Source of the DNA: Trichocoleus desertorum ATA4-8-CV12
Lineage (GTDB): Bacteria > Cyanobacteriota > Cyanobacteriia > FACHB-46
NCBI GenBank assembly: GCA_019358975.1
Contig: JAHHIL010000017.1
Coordinates: 1-64,000 of the forward strand
Direction of reading: 5' to 3'
DNA: 64,000 nt
Made by a program: the position numbers and the translations under genes. How positions within the stretch are numbered: the first letter of the stretch is position 1; every line of letters starts with the position of its first letter. The notes under the pieces are model-generated. The model had not been told where the DNA came from. It ran no database searches and saw nothing but the letters and a program-made list of their open reading frames with translations. This document shows, piece after piece, positions 151 to 59,831 of this stretch.

Positions 151-1608
151 TTATACCAAAGCTTTCAAATTCAACGCTGTTTCATTCAGTTTTTGAGTTT
201 CTACCTTGGTTTGGCTGATGCTACTCGCTGTTTGACTAGCTCCTTGATTAAGTACATTCATGGCATCAATGACTTGTTGAATCGCGATCGCTTGCTGTTT
301 AGCGGTGAGCGAAATTTGTTGGCTATTCATCGTGATGCCATTCACAGCAACCACAATTGTTTCTACCGTTTTAGTGCCTTCATCAGTCACCATGACAGTA
401 ACGTTGGTAGTATTTTGAATGTCTGTGACTAGGGCGTTGATGCGTTCGGTGGATTGTCGGCTTTGGTCAGCCAGTTTGCGAATCTCGGCAGCGACCACTG
501 CAAAGCCTTTGCCCTGATCTCCGGCTCTGGCTGCTTCTACGGCTGCATTCAGCGCCAACATATTGGTTTGATTTGCCAAGTCTCGGACTAGATCGGAGAT
601 GTTACCAATTTGGTTGGTCTGCTCACTTAAGCGCAAAATCTGCTTAGCTATCTGCCCGACTCTTGCTTGTAGGCTGGTGCCATCAGCGGATAGCTCATCG
701 CTACTATTACCGTTCACCAGCGTTAGCACTTGTTGCGCTCCGGTGGCGGCAGCCTCAGCTTGACTAGCTGACTGACGCGCAGAAGTTCCTAGCTCATCCA
801 TCGTCGTAGTCGTTTGGCTGACTGAAACGGCTTGTTGGGCAGCGGTACGTTCTTGCTGCTCAACGGCCACTGCAATTTCTGTTGATGAGGATGCGAGTGT
901 GTTGATGACACTGCTGAGTTTGGTACTCAATGGTTTGGCGATCGCTTGAGTGAAGTAGAAGCCAAAGATAATAGCGATCGTAGGCCCCAACACCATACCT
1001 AAAATTGCCAGAGTTGAAGTTTGTCTAACATCATTTAAAGCTAAGTTTTCGGCTTCTTTGGCCACTTTATAGTTGAGGTCGAGCAGAGCCAGTAGATCAT
1101 TTGTAGCAGCGTCAAAGGCTGCCCGCTCTTCATTCGCCAAAAAGCGATTGAGCCGATCCATTTCAGTTAAAGAAATGCCATCTACTTCTAGTTCTTGATA
1201 AAGCTGCAAAAACCTAGCTTGTTGTTTCTTCCATTCTTCCCATTGCGGTAGGAACTGAGTTTTGTAGAGTTTAGCTTCTGCAAGAGTTTGGGGGGCGGGT
1301 TCATATTCCTCAAATCCTGCGTTAATTTGCTGCCAAGCAGCCTCAATTCGGTTTAATTCAACGTTGCGATCCTCCGGGCTTAAGCGGGGATTGGTTAGCG
1401 ATCGCATGGAGGACTCTACTTGAGTTTGTCCTTCATTAATCTTCCATAACCCGGTGATGCTAGGAATACTAGTTTTGCTAAAGATTTCAATGCGACTACT
1501 GAGCCGAGTGGTACTATTCCAACCCAAAGCAGTAGACGAAAAAACAATAAACCCCATAAACAGAAATGAACCGATGAGCCTGCCCTGTAGCGTCATGCTC
1601 TTAAACAT
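151..1608 (-). CDS. Methyl-accepting chemotaxis protein (MCP A)
   Basis: Transmembrane chemoreceptor of 485 residues. The N-terminus has a membrane segment at about residues 10-30, then a helical extracytoplasmic region (30-195), then a second membrane segment (about 200-222). The cytoplasmic half carries the MCP hairpin tip, read as [18 protein letters not shown], which contacts CheW and CheA in this family. It is the last gene of a leftward chemosensory operon, 38 bp after MCP B, and the two receptors are close paralogs in their signalling halves, so a tandem duplication is likely. The ligand cannot be inferred. No CheA is present in the window. Confidence 0.93.
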
Positions 1609-51822: not shown

Positions 51823-52683
51823 TTACCTACCAGAGGCAGGTAGATGCAACAGAGATAGGACACAGGGTTTATCACCCACCTGGATAGGCATAGCCTCAAC
51901 GTAACAGTGAATCAGTTCACAGCCGAAATCTAGCGTCTCCAAACCCGTTTGTGGCTGACCACTGCTAAAGGCCACCGCAATTAAAGAGTCGTGGGGAATC
52001 GATTTGTTTTTGGGAATGAAGCCGCTGCTCCAGCCTTGAGCCTTGGCTCGCCACCACACGCGCAATTTCTTTTTGGGTTGGGGTTTAGTCGGGAGACAGC
52101 CTTTTTCTTCTCGACGACTTAATGCCCGGTGCCACATTACTACCGCATAGGCTCCCGACTCGTGTTGCACCATGCGGAGCAAAGTGGCGAGCAACGAGGT
52201 TTGGTAGAGATTGGCGAGAATTTGTCCGGTGCGGAGGGAAAAGCCGAGACTGCGGAGTTGAGGCAGAAACGAAGAGGTGGGCATCAACAACTCAGCGGCT
52301 CCGCGATCGCACAACTGCTCTTTTTGCTCAGCCTGCCAAGGTAGTTGCGTGTTGGTGCCTAACAATAACCGCTCCTGAGCATCAAACAACAACTCCATCA
52401 GTTCATGGCCTTCGGTGAAGCGCTGCCGTACCAAGGGGTCATCTTCTTTAATCAGAATTAAGCCTGCATCACTATCCACCAAAATGCCCTGCTGATCGGC
52501 CAGTGGTGCCCGCAGAGGCGTCGGCATCCCGAATTGTTGGTAGATGCGTAAGAGATCGATCGGTGGTTCGTCGCTCAGCCCTGCTGATTGCCGCAGAAAC
52601 TCGACATAGCGACCTACATCCTGCTCAGTTTGCAACAGCCCATAGCGGGACAGGAAAGCTTGCCCAGGATGCCTGTACTGCAT
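51823..52683 (-). CDS. ImmA/IrrE-like protein with altered metal motif
   Basis: A 286-residue member of the ImmA/IrrE (M78) peptidase fold. These proteases cleave Xre-type repressors to switch on mobile elements or stress genes. The expected HExxH reads HELME in RFTEGHELMELLF, so the second zinc His is Glu; GAAELLMP, the usual third-ligand region, is intact. The C-terminal 100 residues are an extra beta-rich domain. The ATG at 52683 is preferred; a GTG at 52701 is possible. Upstream in the same direction lies the Xre gene, split off by a dispersed repeat. Confidence 0.82.
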   Translation of the reverse strand: MQYRHPGQAFLSRYGLLQTEQDVGRYVEFLRQSAGLSDEPPIDLLRIYQQFGMPTPLRAPLADQQGILVDSDAGLILIKEDDPLVRQRFTEGHELMELLFDAQERLLLGTNTQLPWQAEQKEQLCDRGAAELLMPTSSFLPQLRSLGFSLRTGQILANLYQTSLLATLLRMVQHESGAYAVVMWHRALSRREEKGCLPTKPQPKKKLRVWWRAKAQGWSSGFIPKNKSIPHDSLIAVAFSSGQPQTGLETLDFGCELIHCYVEAMPIQVGDKPCVLSLLHLPASGR

Positions 52684-52748
52684 GGAACCGTTCTGCCTCA
52701 CTCACTTGATTACTGTTTTAAGAGATGGTGGAGTGACTCAAGCTGTGA

Positions 52749-52871: not shown

Positions 52872-53246
52872 CTATTTACCAACGGTCATCTTAATCACGT
52901 TATAGAGCAGCTCCCATTTTTCTGGGGTGGTGGGTTGCTGGCCTCGGTACTTGAGCCGCGCCAACATTAACACATCATCCGGGGGGAGATCTGCGGTTTT
53001 GGCAAACTCCGCCAAGCTCGACGGTAAATCTGCCATTGCCTCTAAAGTTCCCGTTTGTTCTTGCTTCAACCCCAGTACTGAGGTGAGGCGTTCCATCACT
53101 TGCCAGGACAGGTTGGTGGCCTGCCCTCGCTCGATTTGCGACAGGTAATTGCGGGAAATCCCGACTTGCTGCGCTAATTCCTCCTGGCTCAGTTTTTCTT
53201 CTCGGCGGCGATCGCGCACCTTTTTACCAAAATCATCAGTTTCCAT
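52872..53246 (-). CDS. Xre-family transcriptional regulator
   Basis: A 124-residue repressor-type protein. The helix-turn-helix lies at about residues 8-62, with KLSQEELAQQVGISRNYLSQ and IERGQATNLS. The C-terminal half is helical and may hold the cleavage or dimer region (LPPDDVLMLARLKYRG). It is divergent from coiled-coil gene 1 and close to an array of direct and inverted repeats (53276-53366) that look like its operators. Pairing with the ImmA-like gene resembles ImmR-ImmA control in integrative elements. Confidence 0.88.
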   Translation of the reverse strand: METDDFGKKVRDRRREEKLSQEELAQQVGISRNYLSQIERGQATNLSWQVMERLTSVLGLKQEQTGTLEAMADLPSSLAEFAKTADLPPDDVLMLARLKYRGQQPTTPEKWELLYNVIKMTVGK

Positions 53247-53270
53247 TGCATTGACGGTCAGGCCTAAATT

Positions 53271-53366
53271 TTGACAACTACAGTTTGCAAATTTAGTCTG
53301 TTGGCTTTACATTTACTGAAGCGGATGCCATAATAGTGTTCAGTAAATGTAAACTACAGTTTGCAA
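53271..53366 (+). promoter_or_regulatory. Operator array and promoter between Xre gene and coiled-coil gene
   Basis: A 15-bp direct repeat AACTACAGTTTGCAA occurs exactly at 53276-53290 and 53352-53366. Between the copies, TTTACATTTACTGAA (53306-53320) and TTCAGTAAATGTAAA (53339-53353) form a perfect 15-bp inverted repeat. Inside the inverted repeat a plus-strand promoter can be read: TTTACA (53306-53311), 17 bp, CATAAT (53329-53334). Binding at these sites would block transcription toward the coiled-coil gene. Confidence 0.75.
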
Positions 53367-53483
53367 TCCTGATTTCACTCTAACAGAAGTTCCCCAAAAG
53401 ATTGCCCGCCGCGAGTTCGAGTTGGTTCAAAACAAGTTCTTTCCAGACTTAGTGATTCAAGTTCTAGTTCTAGGAGATGTTTC

Positions 53484-54476
53484 ATGACCTCAGGTGCCGT
53501 CAAAGACAGCAAAACCAAGATTTTAGAAGCATTTCAACAGATTTTGATGGAGCGGCAAACTAGTGAGTCCAAGGTCGCCACTAAGGAAGAAGAAGCCGAG
53601 AAAGCCCAGAATCAACAAATTCTAGAAACCGCTTCCCAATACACCGCTGACAGCATCGTGCGCGGTTTGGCAGATCTGCAAATTGAGTTTGGCAGCATCA
53701 TCACCAACCTGGCGGGTCGCTTAAGCACCGAAACCACCAAACTCGACGAGTTGAAGCGAGCAATCGCCTTTGAAACCCAACATTACCAAGAACTTCAGCA
53801 AACCCGCATCGTTGCCGATGCGCTGCACATCCTGACCCAAGAGCATCAAGAAAAACTCAAAGACCTAGAGCAGCAAGCCAACCGCGATCGCGAAACCCTA
53901 GAAAAAGAACTCGTCGAAGCCCACAAAGCTTGGCAACAGGAGCAGGAAGAATTTGCGGCGGCTCAAACCGAAAGCCACGAATTGCTGACCCGCGATCGCC
54001 AACGCCAAGAAGAAGATTACCAGTACGAAACCGAGCGATCGCGCACGATTGCCACCGACAACTACGAAGCCAAGAAACGCCAGATTGAGCGAGAAATCCA
54101 GGAAACGGCTCAAGCTAAAGACAAAGATTGGTCAGAACGGGAGCATGTCTGGGAAGCGAACCAAACGCAGCTAGAAACCTATCGCCAAAAAGCCGATTCT
54201 TTCCCCACGGAACTTGAGGAAGCGATTAAGAAATCTAGAGAAGACGGCATTCGCGAAGTTAACCAAGACGCGAAAGTGAAAGCTGATTTGTTGGAGAAGG
54301 AATGGGAAGCCACGAAGCAATTTTACGAGCTACAAATCCAATCTCTCGAAGCCAAAATCCAGAAACAAACAGAGCAAATCACCGAGATTTCCAATCAACT
54401 CCAAGCCGCCATGCGCCAAGCTCAAGACCTCGCCATGCGTGCCTTTGAAAGCTCCTCCAATCGGATGACTGCCTAA
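53484..54476 (+). CDS. Coiled-coil protein 1 of accessory island
   Basis: A 330-residue protein with no named family. The N-terminus SKTKILEAFQQILMERQ is a short amphipathic unit, residues about 50-85 form a second conserved block (RGLADLQIEFGSIITNLAGR), and from about 85 to 320 it is highly charged coiled coil. It is paralogous to the protein at 56055 along its whole length. There is no membrane segment. It is controlled by the operator at 53271-53366, with AGGAG 9 bases before the ATG. A filament, scaffold or sensor role is possible but unknown. Confidence 0.8.
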   Translation: MTSGAVKDSKTKILEAFQQILMERQTSESKVATKEEEAEKAQNQQILETASQYTADSIVRGLADLQIEFGSIITNLAGRLSTETTKLDELKRAIAFETQHYQELQQTRIVADALHILTQEHQEKLKDLEQQANRDRETLEKELVEAHKAWQQEQEEFAAAQTESHELLTRDRQRQEEDYQYETERSRTIATDNYEAKKRQIEREIQETAQAKDKDWSEREHVWEANQTQLETYRQKADSFPTELEEAIKKSREDGIREVNQDAKVKADLLEKEWEATKQFYELQIQSLEAKIQKQTEQITEISNQLQAAMRQAQDLAMRAFESSSNRMTA

Positions 54477-54488
54477 AGATTACACATC

Positions 54489-54560
54489 GTAGGGGCGAAG
54501 CATTCGGTTTTGATTATTTGGTTTCTGAGTTAATGCCTCTACCGAATGCTTCGCCCCTAC
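54489..54560. repeat. 72-bp foldback element with 20-bp perfect arms
   Basis: GTAGGGGCGAAGCATTCGGT (54489-54508) and its exact reverse complement at 54541-54560 enclose 32 bp. This type of palindromic element is widespread in cyanobacterial genomes. It lies 12 bp after coiled-coil gene 1, where it could also end transcription. Confidence 0.85.
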
Positions 54561-54594: not shown

Positions 54595-55167
54595 ATGAAG
54601 CAATTACTTTGCGGTCATACCTCACATCGCAATGAGGCGATCGTGGAACATACCTTTTATGTCACAGATGAACACCGCACTTATGCCTGGAATGGCCAAT
54701 CTTCTTTAGATGCTCGCATTGATGCCGTGATTGATATTGCCTCTGCTTACATTCATCAAATGACTCGTCACAAACCAAAATTTCAAAAACTCGAACTTTC
54801 CTCACAAGTGCTCAGAAATGGTGAAAAGTATTACTACTTTCTGGTGATGTTTGAGCCTCCTTGGTGGGACAATCCAGATGCAGAAATCTGTGGAATGACA
54901 GAGGCGATCGTAACTCTAGATTACAAAGTAATTGAACCAGAGGTTCATCATTTCACCAGTGAAGAAGAGTACCAACGACATCGAGTTCTACAGCGATTAC
55001 ACCATCAACTTGGTAGCCTCAAACCAGGCATGGAACAGCAAGTTTCTCGTCTTTCCACCAACGTACTCTGGAGCCTAGAAACTGCTATTTGGGATTTCAA
55101 TAGTGAGAGTGACTTGACGAACTGGTTAGAAAAATATAGTTCTCATCAACACAAGAGTAAGTGCTAA
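54595..55167 (+). CDS. Unrecognised island protein of 190 residues
   Basis: Soluble protein starting MKQLLCGHTSHRNEAIVEH. The middle alternates short strands (KYYYFLVMFEPPWWDN, EAIVTLDYKVIEPE), and the C-terminus is helical (LTNWLEKYSS). Cys and His near the N-terminus (CGHTSH) might bind metal. It lies between coiled-coil gene 1 and the XisI/XisH pair. I do not recognise a family. Confidence 0.6.
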   Translation: MKQLLCGHTSHRNEAIVEHTFYVTDEHRTYAWNGQSSLDARIDAVIDIASAYIHQMTRHKPKFQKLELSSQVLRNGEKYYYFLVMFEPPWWDNPDAEICGMTEAIVTLDYKVIEPEVHHFTSEEEYQRHRVLQRLHHQLGSLKPGMEQQVSRLSTNVLWSLETAIWDFNSESDLTNWLEKYSSHQHKSKC

Positions 55168-55203: not shown

Positions 55204-55548
55204 CTAACCAATTGCAAACTCTGTGAATTGTCTCTTATAGGGAGCTTGAAAACCTAGAACAATATCTTGCTTGGGAACCCCCAACTCTACTAGCGAAGAT
55301 GCAATATCTTCCTCTGTACCATTCCATTGAACCCAAATCTTGCCATCTTTGATATCTAGATGTAGCACAGCTCCGTAAACGCGACGTTTATTATGCCAGC
55401 CTACATACATCAATTGGTAGTGATCGTGTTCAGTATCAAAAATTATTTGGGTTTCAACCCCATCTTCTCTATTTGTTGACGAACCCTTTTGGGCATGTTC
55501 CAGTAAAGCTTTTTGAATGTAATTTCGATATTGTTCTAGTTTTTCCAT
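55204..55548 (-). CDS. XisI-family protein
   Basis: A 114-residue protein of the family named after the fdxN-element excision controlling factor XisI. It begins MEKLEQYRNYIQKALLEHA, and the core shows YQLMYVGWHNKRRVYGAVLH, DIKDGKIWVQWNGTE and VPKQDIVLGFQAPYKR, which are family hallmarks. It overlaps the upstream xisH by 13 bp. Such pairs are very common outside heterocyst excision elements and may work as a toxin-antitoxin-like or nuclease-control pair; that role is unproven. Confidence 0.88.
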   Translation of the reverse strand: MEKLEQYRNYIQKALLEHAQKGSSTNREDGVETQIIFDTEHDHYQLMYVGWHNKRRVYGAVLHLDIKDGKIWVQWNGTEEDIASSLVELGVPKQDIVLGFQAPYKRQFTEFAIG

Positions 55549-55955
55549 GCCACGATTTCCTCCTGTTCAGCATCATAAATCAGCAGATGAATTTCACTAC
55601 CTTGAATTACGGTTTGTACAAAGGGAAGTGCAAAAAACTCATCATAAGTTTCTACTGGTACTGCTAAGTACAAAATACGTTCAGGATCATGCTCAGCTAG
55701 GGCATACCGATAGTTGATGAATTGCCCGACTGCTGTATGAAAGTCAGAGATTAGAGATGCACCCAAAAAGCTCTTCACCTCAACGGCAATTCTCTGCCCA
55801 TTCCGATCAGCAGCAATAATTTTCTCAGCCCCCAAATCTATGTACAGGTTGAGTGTTCGGCTGAGACGAATGGTTAAAGGATCATCTGTAATCTGCCAAT
55901 CAGCCTTCTGCAGAGCAACTTTAACCGCGTAATGAAAGATGTCTTTTGCTGACAT
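55536..55955 (-). CDS. XisH-family nuclease-fold protein
   Basis: A 139-residue protein starting MSAKDIFHYAVKVALQKADW. The motif YIDLGAEKIIAADRNG with IAVEVKSFLG gives Asp, then Glu-x-Lys, the PD-(D/E)xK nuclease arrangement expected for XisH. It is the first gene of a leftward pair with xisI. In heterocyst-forming cyanobacteria the namesake controls fdxN element excision; no fdxN or XisF recombinase is present here. Confidence 0.9.
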   Translation of the reverse strand: MSAKDIFHYAVKVALQKADWQITDDPLTIRLSRTLNLYIDLGAEKIIAADRNGQRIAVEVKSFLGASLISDFHTAVGQFINYRYALAEHDPERILYLAVPVETYDEFFALPFVQTVIQGSEIHLLIYDAEQEEIVAWKN

Positions 55956-56054: not shown

Positions 56055-57119
56055 ATGGTTCGTAGACCGAGTGAGAAAAACACGAAGGCGGAAATTCTTG
56101 CAGCTTTTGATGAATTACTAAAAGAGAAGAAAGTGTTGGAAACTCAAGCAGCACAGGCGACAAAAGAGCGATCGCCCGAATCAAGCCAGAAACCTGCCCT
56201 GAAAGTAACCGTCGTGCAACCAGAGTCACCGACGATGACCTCTGTGTTGGAAGGGTTGAGCAAGCTGCAGCTCAGCTTTGGTGGGGCTATCAGCGATCTA
56301 TCGGAAAAGCTGACGCTAGAAGCGGTGAAGCTACAAGAAGTACGACAGGCCATCACAACCGAAGTGCAGCAGCTAGAAACCCTTCATGGTTTACGAGCTG
56401 ATGACGCGAGTTTGGAAACGTTGATTGAGCAGTATGACACTAGCTTTAAAACCTTCAACGAAGAACTGGGTCAATGTCGCGAAACTCTAGAGCAAGAATT
56501 CTCACAGGCAAAAAAGGCTTGGGCCAAAGAACAAGAAGAACATCGCCGCACCGTGAAAGAGCGCAATGAGACGCTGACCAAAACTCGCCAACGCGATACC
56601 AAAGAGTACACCTACAACCTGACGCTGCAACGCAAGCTTGACACCGACACCTACGAGCAAGCCCAAAAAGCCCTGTGCCAGGAATTAGAAGAACTCCAGC
56701 GATCGCACGATCAACAGTGGACTGAGCGAGAAATGGCGATCGCGGAACGAGAGAAACAGTTTGCCGAGCTGAAAGCAAAGGTGGAAGGCTTCCCGAAAGA
56801 GTTGGAGTCGGCGATCAAACGCGCTAAGGAAGAAGGCAAGGGCATTGCTCATCACCAAGCCAAGGTCAAAGCAGATTTGTATGCCAAAGACGTGGAAGGG
56901 AACAAGCGCAACTATGAATTACGCATCCAATCCCTACAGGAGAACTTACAAAATCAAGAAACCCGGATTCATGCTCTCTCACAACAACTTAGTGCTGTCC
57001 TCAAACAGGTTCAGGATTTGGCAGTCAAAGCGATCGAAGGCGCAGCAAATGTTAGTTCCTTCCAAGCTATGCGCGAAATTGCGATCGAGCAAGCGAAAAC
57101 TCAGTCCAAGAACAAGTAA
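56055..57119 (+). CDS. Coiled-coil protein 2 of accessory island (paralog of 53484)
   Basis: A 354-residue protein resembling the 330-residue protein upstream: N-terminal TKAEILAAFDELLKEKK, a second block SVLEGLSKLQLSFGGAISDL, then coiled coil (about 95-330) with the matching FPKELESAIKRAKEEG and AKVKADLYAKD segments. The C-terminal tail adds about 25 residues. It is followed 123 bp later by the small pseudogene at 57243, which shares a leader sequence with coiled-coil gene 1. Function unknown. Confidence 0.8.
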   Translation: MVRRPSEKNTKAEILAAFDELLKEKKVLETQAAQATKERSPESSQKPALKVTVVQPESPTMTSVLEGLSKLQLSFGGAISDLSEKLTLEAVKLQEVRQAITTEVQQLETLHGLRADDASLETLIEQYDTSFKTFNEELGQCRETLEQEFSQAKKAWAKEQEEHRRTVKERNETLTKTRQRDTKEYTYNLTLQRKLDTDTYEQAQKALCQELEELQRSHDQQWTEREMAIAEREKQFAELKAKVEGFPKELESAIKRAKEEGKGIAHHQAKVKADLYAKDVEGNKRNYELRIQSLQENLQNQETRIHALSQQLSAVLKQVQDLAVKAIEGAANVSSFQAMREIAIEQAKTQSKNK

Positions 57120-57242: not shown

Positions 57243-57551
57243 ATGTAACCGATTCGTCAAGGCGATGTAATTCTAGCTCCCGTTGAGTCTGCTACTGGAT
57301 TCCCGACCCAAGACAGCCAAAAACTTCCACACCTCACCCTCGCAGAAGAAGTCACCGGACACAGCCACCGAATTAGTCAAGGATAAGCCGAACTGTGCGA
57401 TCGCGAAGGTACACTATATCTCTCGATTGCCTCTGACTCCGCCACCCTCACCCACGAAGAACACAAACCCATTCAAATTCCCCAAGGTAATTGGCTTGTC
57501 CGCATTCAGCGCCAATACGAACCGGGTAATTGGAGCTATGTAGAGGATTAA
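57243..57551 (+). pseudogene. Small conserved protein inactivated by two in-frame TAA codons
   Basis: A 103-codon frame open except for TAA at codon 2 (57246-57248) and codon 48 (57384-57386). Read through, it gives PIRQGDVILAPVE, LPHLTLAEEVTGHSHRI and YEPGNWSYVED, a pattern I recognise from small cyanobacterial proteins often near DUF6745 genes (no family name recalled). Each stop is one base from a plausible sense codon (AAA to TAA, GAA to TAA). The ribosome site AAGGAG before the ATG is intact, so decay is recent, unless the stops are somehow read. Confidence 0.7.
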
Positions 57552-57632: not shown

Positions 57633-58058
57633 CTAAGGCAAAATCTCAAAGCTATTACAGTGTTTCGGTCGGAATAGCCTGAAATCCCGTTGGTCTAAAG
57701 TCAGAATAGTAGTACTACTGTAGCGCTCAGCAATACTCATGACACTTGCATCTACAAAATCAATACGGCTGTCAGCATACTGAGCCAGAATTTCAGCAAC
57801 GCGGACTATATCCTGATCTGTTAAAGCTACCAAGCGAAAGCGACTTGCAGACAAGCCATTTAAAAAGCCAACTACAACGGTAGTTCCCGCATCTCGGCCC
57901 AATAGATATGCAACTTCTGCTAGGACTGTTTGAGGTAACAGCACTGATCGTTGGGTTGCATATACTGCTTTGACAGCTTCATGTCTAACGTCTGTACGAT
58001 TTAGCAAGGCAACGACAAAGCCTGTATCTGCTACTGCAATGGTTCTTTCCACGTCCAC
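57633..58058 (-). CDS. PIN-domain toxin (VapC-like)
   Basis: A 141-residue putative ribonuclease toxin. PIN acidic residues are seen in AVADTGFVVALLN, the Glu in VLAEVAYLLG, and the Asp pairs in RIDFVDASVMSIAE and LTLDQRDF. The reading frame overlaps the antitoxin gene upstream by 28 bp, the usual coupling. It would cleave RNA, often tRNA or rRNA, when released from its antitoxin. A run CCCCCT...AGGGGG stem lies between it and the small pseudogene. Confidence 0.87.
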   Translation of the reverse strand: MDVERTIAVADTGFVVALLNRTDVRHEAVKAVYATQRSVLLPQTVLAEVAYLLGRDAGTTVVVGFLNGLSASRFRLVALTDQDIVRVAEILAQYADSRIDFVDASVMSIAERYSSTTILTLDQRDFRLFRPKHCNSFEILP

Positions 58059-58303
58059 CCAGACTGTTCAGTAGTGCCTTGTTGCAAGATTTCTTCTGAC
58101 TTCGTTGCTAAATCTGGTGAACCTGCGAACAGACCAATCAGCGGATCAGGTTCATTGCTCCTCGATTTTGTAGATTGAATATCTAAGTACAAGGTCACAG
58201 CCTCATTAATGATCGCCTCTGGAGACTGACCTCTTCTACGCGCTAAGGTGACTAGCTGTTCTAGAAGACCTTGCTCTGGCTTCCAGTTGAATGCAGAATT
58301 CAT
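58031..58303 (-). CDS. Antitoxin for the PIN toxin at 57633
   Basis: A 90-residue protein with an N-terminal helical region like a ribbon-helix-helix or similar dimer domain (EQLVTLARRRGQSPEAIINE, then AVTLYLDIQ) and a flexible Pro/Asp/Ser-rich C-terminus ending WTWKEPLQ, which would wrap the toxin. It is upstream of and overlaps vapC. The antitoxin would also autoregulate the pair. The family is not named with confidence. Confidence 0.8.
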   Translation of the reverse strand: MNSAFNWKPEQGLLEQLVTLARRRGQSPEAIINEAVTLYLDIQSTKSRSNEPDPLIGLFAGSPDLATKSEEILQQGTTEQSGWTWKEPLQ

Positions 58304-59173: not shown

Positions 59174-59211
59174 AGAATAGATTTAGTCTTTTGAAGTATG
59201 GAGATATAGCA

Positions 59212-59448
59212 ATGCCTACTAAAACAATAGATTTACAAATAGAGCAAGCTAACCTACAAGACTTACTAGCTCTTGTACAAGCTGGGACGGATGTGATTTT
59301 AACTGAAGGAACAACCCCGATCGCTCAGTTGATTGCGATCGCTTCTACAACCCCATCACGAGTTGCAGGACTACATGCTGGCTCAATGCAAATGAGTAGT
59401 GACTTTAACGAGCCTTTACCCGAAACTTTTTGGTTAGGAAACTCATGA
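59212..59448 (+). CDS. Phd/VapB-like antitoxin
   Basis: A 78-residue antitoxin from the ATG at 59212, which has GGAG 8 bases upstream; a TTG at 59191 is less likely. The N-terminal IEQANLQDLLALVQAGTDVI and TEGTTPIAQLIAI match the Phd/YefM DNA-binding fold. The C-terminus is flexible (DFNEPLPETFWLGNS). It overlaps the toxin gene by 4 bp (ATGA). Confidence 0.85.
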   Translation: MPTKTIDLQIEQANLQDLLALVQAGTDVILTEGTTPIAQLIAIASTTPSRVAGLHAGSMQMSSDFNEPLPETFWLGNS

Positions 59449-59831
59449 GGCTGTTGTTAGATACCCATACATTCATTTGGTGGGACAGTGAGCCATCCCG
59501 CCTCTCTCAGCAAGCCCTGGCAGCGATCGAGAATCCAACTAACACACTAGTACTTAGTGTTGCTAGCGTCTGGGAAATGCAAATTAAATCTCAATTGGGT
59601 AAATTACAATTCAAGCTACCGCTAGTAGAAGTAATTGAGAGCCAATGTCAGACGAATCAGATTGAAATATTACCAATCAGGCTCTCACATGTTTTAGGAA
59701 TCAATCATCTACCCACATATCACAAAGATCCATTTGATCGGCTCTTAATTGCTCAATCAATTGTTGAGGAAGCAACATTGGTGAGTGGAGACCCAATCAT
59801 CAGCCAATATTCGATTCAAATAATTTGGTAA
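59445..59831 (+). CDS. PIN-domain toxin (VapC-like)
   Basis: A 128-residue toxin from the ATG at 59445, coupled by ATGA to the antitoxin. PIN features: LLLDTHTFIWW (first Asp), SVASVWEMQIK (Glu), and KDPFDRLLIAQSIVE (Asp pair), with the late SGDPIIS. It would act as a metal-dependent RNase held in check by the Phd-like partner. The module lies between two DUF6745 copies. Confidence 0.9.
   Translation: MRLLLDTHTFIWWDSEPSRLSQQALAAIENPTNTLVLSVASVWEMQIKSQLGKLQFKLPLVEVIESQCQTNQIEILPIRLSHVLGINHLPTYHKDPFDRLLIAQSIVEEATLVSGDPIISQYSIQIIW

Follow-up and report, generated by a model that had tools for sequence, protein, structure and literature searches.

The locus described here, part of a 64,000-nucleotide stretch of Trichocoleus desertorum ATA4-8-CV12 (the window), is in our view quite probably an operon inducible by DNA damage that encodes a two-subunit, intermediate-filament-like protein of the ZicK/ZacK family, with a dedicated local switch. 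The damage-triggered part of this reading is well supported, and filaments of the ZicK/ZacK type are probably made upon DNA damage. During normal growth, a dimer of a DdrO-like repressor (Xre1) on two operators (O1 and O2) would shut the promoter at 53306-53334. After damage, an IrrE/CapP-like protein (ImmA1) would inactivate Xre1, either by cutting it or by binding alone, and the coiled-coil genes would be switched on. The signal would most likely be single-stranded DNA (ssDNA), as for PprI and CapP; both known pairs, PprI/DdrO and CapP/CapH, respond to ssDNA (PMC10904395). The coiled-coil proteins would then form filaments in T. desertorum and, as a guess, these might hold trichome and septa together during stalled division.

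Regulators, operator and promoter of the window locus

The repressor gene xre1 (52872-53246, minus strand) encodes an HTH_31 protein that matched DdrO over its full length in profile comparisons (6jq1, residues 5-119, E-value 9e-11; 6rmq, residues 7-118, E-value 6e-9) and capH in PADLOC (E-value 5.3e-12). When its structural model was compared with the PDB using Foldseek, DdrO ranked first, although weakly (E-value 4e-3; model pTM 0.49). The motif Y-R-G is invariant across the Xre1 sequences and aligns with L-R-G of DdrO, in which R-G belongs to the cleavage loop. In D. deserti DdrO, L-R-G contains the L106-R107 cleavage site.

The neighboring gene, immA1 (51823-52701, minus strand), encodes a Peptidase_M78 domain (Pfam, E-value 2.6e-8) followed by a GAF-like C-terminal part, and residues 65-273 align to 8slm. 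Sequence matches in the PDB were 8slm, 3dte and 7t5t (IrrE/PprI and CapP), the fold search returned 8slm (E-value 1e-10) as well as 8sln, 3dte and 7t5t, and PADLOC assigned the protein to capP (E-value 1.8e-21). By sequence and predicted fold, DdrO and PprI/CapP thus appear to be the nearest solved relatives of Xre1 and ImmA1. ImmA1 was found in two of 386 cyanobacterial genomes, adjacent to the coiled-coil pair both times, and it likewise stands beside the pair in every further type-1 locus read.

Every type-1 ImmA read has HELME where IrrE has HEISH, so that the second His of HEXXH is replaced by Glu while the first His, the catalytic Glu and, by alignment, the third-ligand Glu are kept. Cleavage of Xre1 may not occur, because HELME loses the second zinc-binding His. 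An earlier note on this DNA had proposed protease-released repression; the Xre and ImmA/IrrE-type pair is indeed present, but cleavage is uncertain given HELME in all type-1 proteins. We give a little less than an even chance to a variant in which the regulon is the same and ImmA1 is a non-protease that binds Xre1 and pulls it off the DNA, possibly while its GAF-like part carries ssDNA or some other ligand. Such a release has a precedent in Streptococcus thermophilus, where the COG2856 protein Rir inactivates the repressor Crh without cutting it (PMC7907104), and the altered metal site agrees with it. On the other hand, a metal can also be bound by Glu, which may leave the protein active, and all Xre1 sequences retain R-G from the cleavage loop of DdrO.

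The intergenic region between xre1 and the first coiled-coil gene is 237 bp long. It contains a 15-bp direct repeat, AACTACAGTTTGCAA, with both copies exact (53276-53290 and 53352-53366), around a perfect 15-bp inverted repeat (53306-53353; arms 53306-53320 and 53339-53353), as the earlier note had described. When the region was shuffled 300 times with dinucleotides preserved, the longest direct repeat and the longest inverted repeat each reached a maximum of 10 bp, against 15 bp observed for both. The sole promoter-like site in the region, TTTACA-17-CATAAT with TG preceding the -10 (53306-53334, plus strand), points toward the zicK-like gene; its -35 is part of the left arm and its -10 falls in the spacer of the inverted repeat, which bears out the reported placement of the promoter within the inverted repeat.

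The two direct-repeat copies are parts of larger units, the predicted operators O1 (TGACAACTACAGTTTGCAA, 53272-53290, plus strand, upstream) and O2 (palindrome TGTAAACTACAGTTTGCAA, 53348-53366, plus strand), which flank the promoter. Both are full palindromes common to distant relatives, with the consensus TGyAAACTACAGTTTGCA, and they are the only sites of the window's genome within one mismatch of it. The palindrome, whose purest form is ATGCAAACTACAGTTTGCAT, occurs at the same position in most type-1 relatives from other families, where it surrounds a TTTACA/TTGCAT-17-(-10) promoter, with the -35 and -10 of zicK between both units. Among the type-1 loci, TGCAAACTACAGTTTGCA is perfect in L168, L068 and L073, has one mismatch in L071 and is weaker in L047 and L049. 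The conserved and genome-unique operator supports the claim that the Xre and ImmA/IrrE-type pair controls the coiled-coil gene, as far as sequence can tell. The elements listed for the interval 52872-54476 are all real, and Xre, operator and coiled-coil gene lie inside it, but the ImmA-like protein falls just outside, and the second coiled-coil gene (56055-57119) and the full-palindrome operator units had been missed.

The coiled-coil pair and its surroundings

The first gene of the pair (53484-54476, plus strand) encodes a ZicK-type coiled-coil protein of 330 aa, which is charged, contains one proline and has a significant hydrophobic period of 3.3-3.75 residues. The second gene (56055-57119, plus strand) encodes a ZacK-type protein of 354 aa that is 37 % identical to the first; profile comparison of the two families (A and B) gave an E-value of 4e-55 along the whole length. 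Both proteins match PHROG 29668, and no family in Pfam, NCBIfam or PADLOC scored above cut-off for them. The family is present in 53 of 386 cyanobacterial genomes (34 of 143 genera), with its two genes nearly always side by side, and the loci read have them strictly in the order A then B.

Across the Nostocales the pair holds a conserved position, divergent from sphR-sphS-phoU. In Nostoc PCC 7120 these three genes are all4503, all4502 and all4501 (PMC7564538). The pair can therefore be placed among the relatives of Anabaena alr4504-alr4505, since the genes that adjoin it in the Nostocales correspond to all4503-all4501; the relatives read were the best 80 of 382, with PCC 7120 and Arthrospira outside them. 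ZicK is Alr4504 and ZacK is Alr4505. By synteny, the window pair is thus related to ZicK/ZacK, which have been described as strictly interdependent heteropolymers that stabilize the Anabaena trichome and its shape (Springstein et al. 2021, doi 10.1111/febs.15630). The statement that the effector has not been described no longer holds, as the gene and its tandem partner have these described relatives.

A full-length ZacK-type homologue, gp268, was observed in Bacillus phage G (L146, 7995-9023; 27 % identity, E-value 5e-12). It was the only phage relative of the family found, and the search of IMG/VR returned none. These results bear on the idea that the locus is an antiphage or mobile-element module, in which the filament acts in abortive infection and the regulator detects DNA of phages, the part that CapHP plays for CBASS. 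The capH/capP scores of the regulators, the phage G homologue and a related Xre/ImmA pair that adjoins a long pAgo-Cas4-like operon elsewhere in this genome all speak for it. We nevertheless consider it improbable: the coiled-coil proteins are without a PADLOC match, viral relatives were not found in IMG/VR, and, in contrast to typical defence islands, the sphR-sphS-phoU neighborhood has been retained throughout the Nostocales. Neither the gene survey nor PADLOC revealed CBASS genes around the window locus, and no phage or conjugative element was met there; the neighbors are housekeeping genes.

In Trichocoleus a gene for a DUF4351 protein (in the window 54595-55167, plus strand) lies between the two coiled-coil genes. 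The window also has xisI and xisH there (55204-55955, minus strand), which belong to the fdxN-excision-factor families. xisHI is missing from the same place in the sister genome G002; the comparison indicates that it was inserted between the pair genes in the window. The zicK- and zacK-type genes may no longer share an operon here, because xisHI lies between them, and the ZacK-type gene (B) of ATA4-8-CV12 may be uncoupled from the switch. In the sister species G001 (L051, 9730-11172) the pair has decayed through stops and a deletion, with xre, immA and the operator kept. The module is thus eroding in the genus of the window, as the insertion and the decayed pair show.

A third conserved operon gene 3' of the pair was also sought and rejected, as none is common to the loci: a 103-aa gene, a KTSC gene and others vary. 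A KTSC-domain type gene lies directly downstream of the pair in the type-1 loci L068, L071, L073 and L101. In the window, a degenerate remnant of the 103-aa gene (phrog_27831) was observed just past the second coiled-coil gene (57243-57550); the gene is intact in L046 (10253-10564), and L067 is similar. A perfect 20-bp inverted repeat (GTAGGGGCGAAGCATTCGGT, 54489-54560) immediately 3' of the first coiled-coil gene is possibly a dispersed element. Two toxin-antitoxin-like gene pairs, with toxins that are PIN-like by eye, lie near the locus (57633-58303 and 59191-59831). Elsewhere in the genome (L194 on G000:C42, 1697-6079), a type-2-like Xre/ImmA pair is divergent from an operon with a long class II prokaryotic Argonaute and a Cas4-like nuclease, an arrangement that seems to be present also in L187 and L193.

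Three switches in front of one pair

In the Nostocales no Xre adjoins the pair, and a TTGACAA-N-TATAAT-like promoter is followed directly by the box TAGTACN4[GA]TACTA. With up to two mismatches, this box was found 3' of the -10 at 70 of the 71 sphR-linked loci; with up to one mismatch it was found at 65 of 71, compared with 3 of 1420 shuffles. Judged by its letters it is the published LexA box of cyanobacteria, RGTACNNNDGTWCB (PMC3091678), with many Nostocales copies deviating from that consensus by ATAC in the second half. At lexA itself, three Nostoc-type genomes have TAGTACTAATGTTCTA. Xre-less loci of other groups also have LexA-like boxes, some only at two mismatches, a level that about 4 % of shuffles reach too.

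Most other pair loci outside the Nostocaceae carry an Xre of another kind (type 2), in many cases along with a different ImmA that bears HEXXH. Their promoter begins with TTGAC, the -35, inside TTGACN7TCAAC, followed by the -10 and then by a second element, TTGAN8TCAA, which together form the double operator TTGACN7TCAAC-N13..30-TTGAN8TCAA. Most Xre2 genomes that were searched have this operator in one place. It was found in three places in G225, at the same strictness in none of G250, G161 and G176, and not in five Nostocaceae, G000 (the window's genome) or G234. The two extra copies in G225 (L210 and L231) lie off the pair, one of them upstream of a gene that is lipoamide-dehydrogenase-like by eye. 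Some families have three small genes (about 88, 233 and 122 aa) between the type-2 promoter and the pair; in Planktothrix (L122, L134 and L143) the order is ImmA2-Xre2 / small-231..247-small / A-B.

Xre2 orthologues occurred in 25 of the 53 genomes with the pair and in 8 of the 333 others (Fisher p 5e-18, uncorrected for phylogeny). Two genomes, G051 (L189, C62) and G250 (L190, C104), have type-2 operators at zicK and xre2-immA2 on a separate contig, and the pair is probably regulated in trans there. An exclusive linkage between Xre2 and the pair was rejected, as Xre2/ImmA2 also occurs without the pair, for example beside the 88-aa gene or pAgo. We also rejected Xre/ImmA as a general substitute for LexA, on the grounds that the type-2 double operator is found in a single place in most genomes and that several genomes carry LexA plus Xre. 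Several type-2 genomes are without LexA.

When 52 loci of an even sample were classified by script, 23 were of the LexA type, 20 had Xre2, three had the Xre2 operator without a called Xre and one had Xre1; the remaining five could not be assigned to a type, and three of these lie close to a contig end or on a broken contig. The window is a further Xre1 locus outside this sample. The pair is predicted to be wired to three unrelated switches: a DdrO/IrrE-like one, a CapH/CapP-like one with a double operator and the Nostocales LexA box.

Damage induction and comparison with known systems

Published data on relatives in Nostoc and Arthrospira agree with a pair that is switched on by DNA damage or by stress of the SOS type. 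When Nostoc 7120 was exposed to BMAA, Alr4505 was 20-fold and Alr4504 4.35-fold up, alongside RecA (4.55-fold) and the SSB alr0088 (2.04-fold) (PMC8147232). LexA boxes lie at recA and alr0088. In Arthrospira PCC 8005, which is without LexA, one cluster stands out for its gamma induction, arhG (XRE)-F-E-D-C-B-A, with RNA up to 14.6x and 22.4x under gamma rays; ArhC carries a 'chromosome segregation' domain, and ArhB/ArhC are conserved to Nostoc 7120 (PMC4398503). The order arhG-F-E-D-C-B fits that of the Planktothrix pair loci and, together with the homology stated for ArhB/ArhC, suggests that they are the same genes. SMC-like coiled coils are often annotated as 'chromosome segregation'. The proposed damage or stress trigger is thus upheld by the closest relatives of the regulators (DdrO/IrrE and CapH/CapP), by the Nostocales LexA box and by these induction data.

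The BMAA study called alr4504/alr4505 NtcA-controlled (PMC8147232), and this claim, the broken pair with kept regulators and operator in G001, and the xisHI insertion weigh against a damage-inducible filament operon. NtcA control would suit a constitutive or nutrient-regulated cell-shape operon, in which the pair serves trichome shape and the Xre is an ordinary autoregulator without damage input. The adjoining sphR/sphS/phoU in the Nostocales and the role described for ZicK/ZacK in maintaining trichome shape in Anabaena point the same way. The LexA box in the Nostocales, the CapHP- and DdrO/IrrE-type regulators elsewhere, and induction linked to gamma rays and SOS (PMC4398503, PMC8147232) make this explanation an unlikely one.

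The damage-inducible filament operon, as we read it, resembles several known systems in part. With IrrE (PprI)/DdrO of Deinococcus the window shares the DdrO-like C-terminal domain and R-G loop of Xre1, the M78 and GAF-like parts of ImmA1 and a likely DNA-damage input. It differs in its single dedicated target operon, against about 20 repair genes in Deinococcus, in reading HELME where IrrE has HEISH, and in the operator TGCAAACTACAGTTTGCA, which is not the RDRM. As with CapH/CapP of CBASS, an Xre/M78 pair with PADLOC capH/capP matches stands before an effector operon, and the Xre2/ImmA2 type retains HEXXH, but the effector is a coiled-coil pair with no CBASS genes. The logic of Xre plus ImmA is that of ImmR/ImmA of ICEBs1, but the window locus is without mobile-element genes, and IrrE and CapP are the closer relatives of ImmA1. 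ZicK/ZacK of Anabaena PCC 7120 (Alr4504/Alr4505) is the same pair by position beside sphR (all4503), with tandem coiled coils; judging from Nostocales relatives a LexA box would be found there, in contrast to the DdrO/IrrE-like switch of the window, and damage control is not part of the published description in so far as it was accessible. Finally, arhG-arhA of Arthrospira PCC 8005, the strongest gamma-ray-induced cluster (PMC4398503), has the XRE, three small genes and coiled-coil pair seen in Planktothrix; a CapHP-like type-2 regulator is expected there, unlike the type 1 of the window.

The ZicK/ZacK filament of trichome shape, the gamma-induced arh genes of Arthrospira, so far unexplained, and the IrrE/DdrO and CapH/CapP switches are joined here by a link that was not found in the literature searched. 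We put at even chances the wider proposal that ZicK/ZacK is a conserved damage-induced cytoskeletal filament, controlled by LexA or, independently, by two Xre/ImmA-type switches, one of them with a HELME pseudo-protease, and that building or remodelling a polymer of the intermediate-filament kind belongs to the standard damage response in these cyanobacteria. If true, ZicK/ZacK would be a damage-response filament too, and the role of arhB/arhC would be directly testable in Anabaena, where knockout strains are available. That LexA and Xre/ImmA take each other's place repeatedly at a single operon would then be a clear case of regulator swapping in which the input signal is kept.
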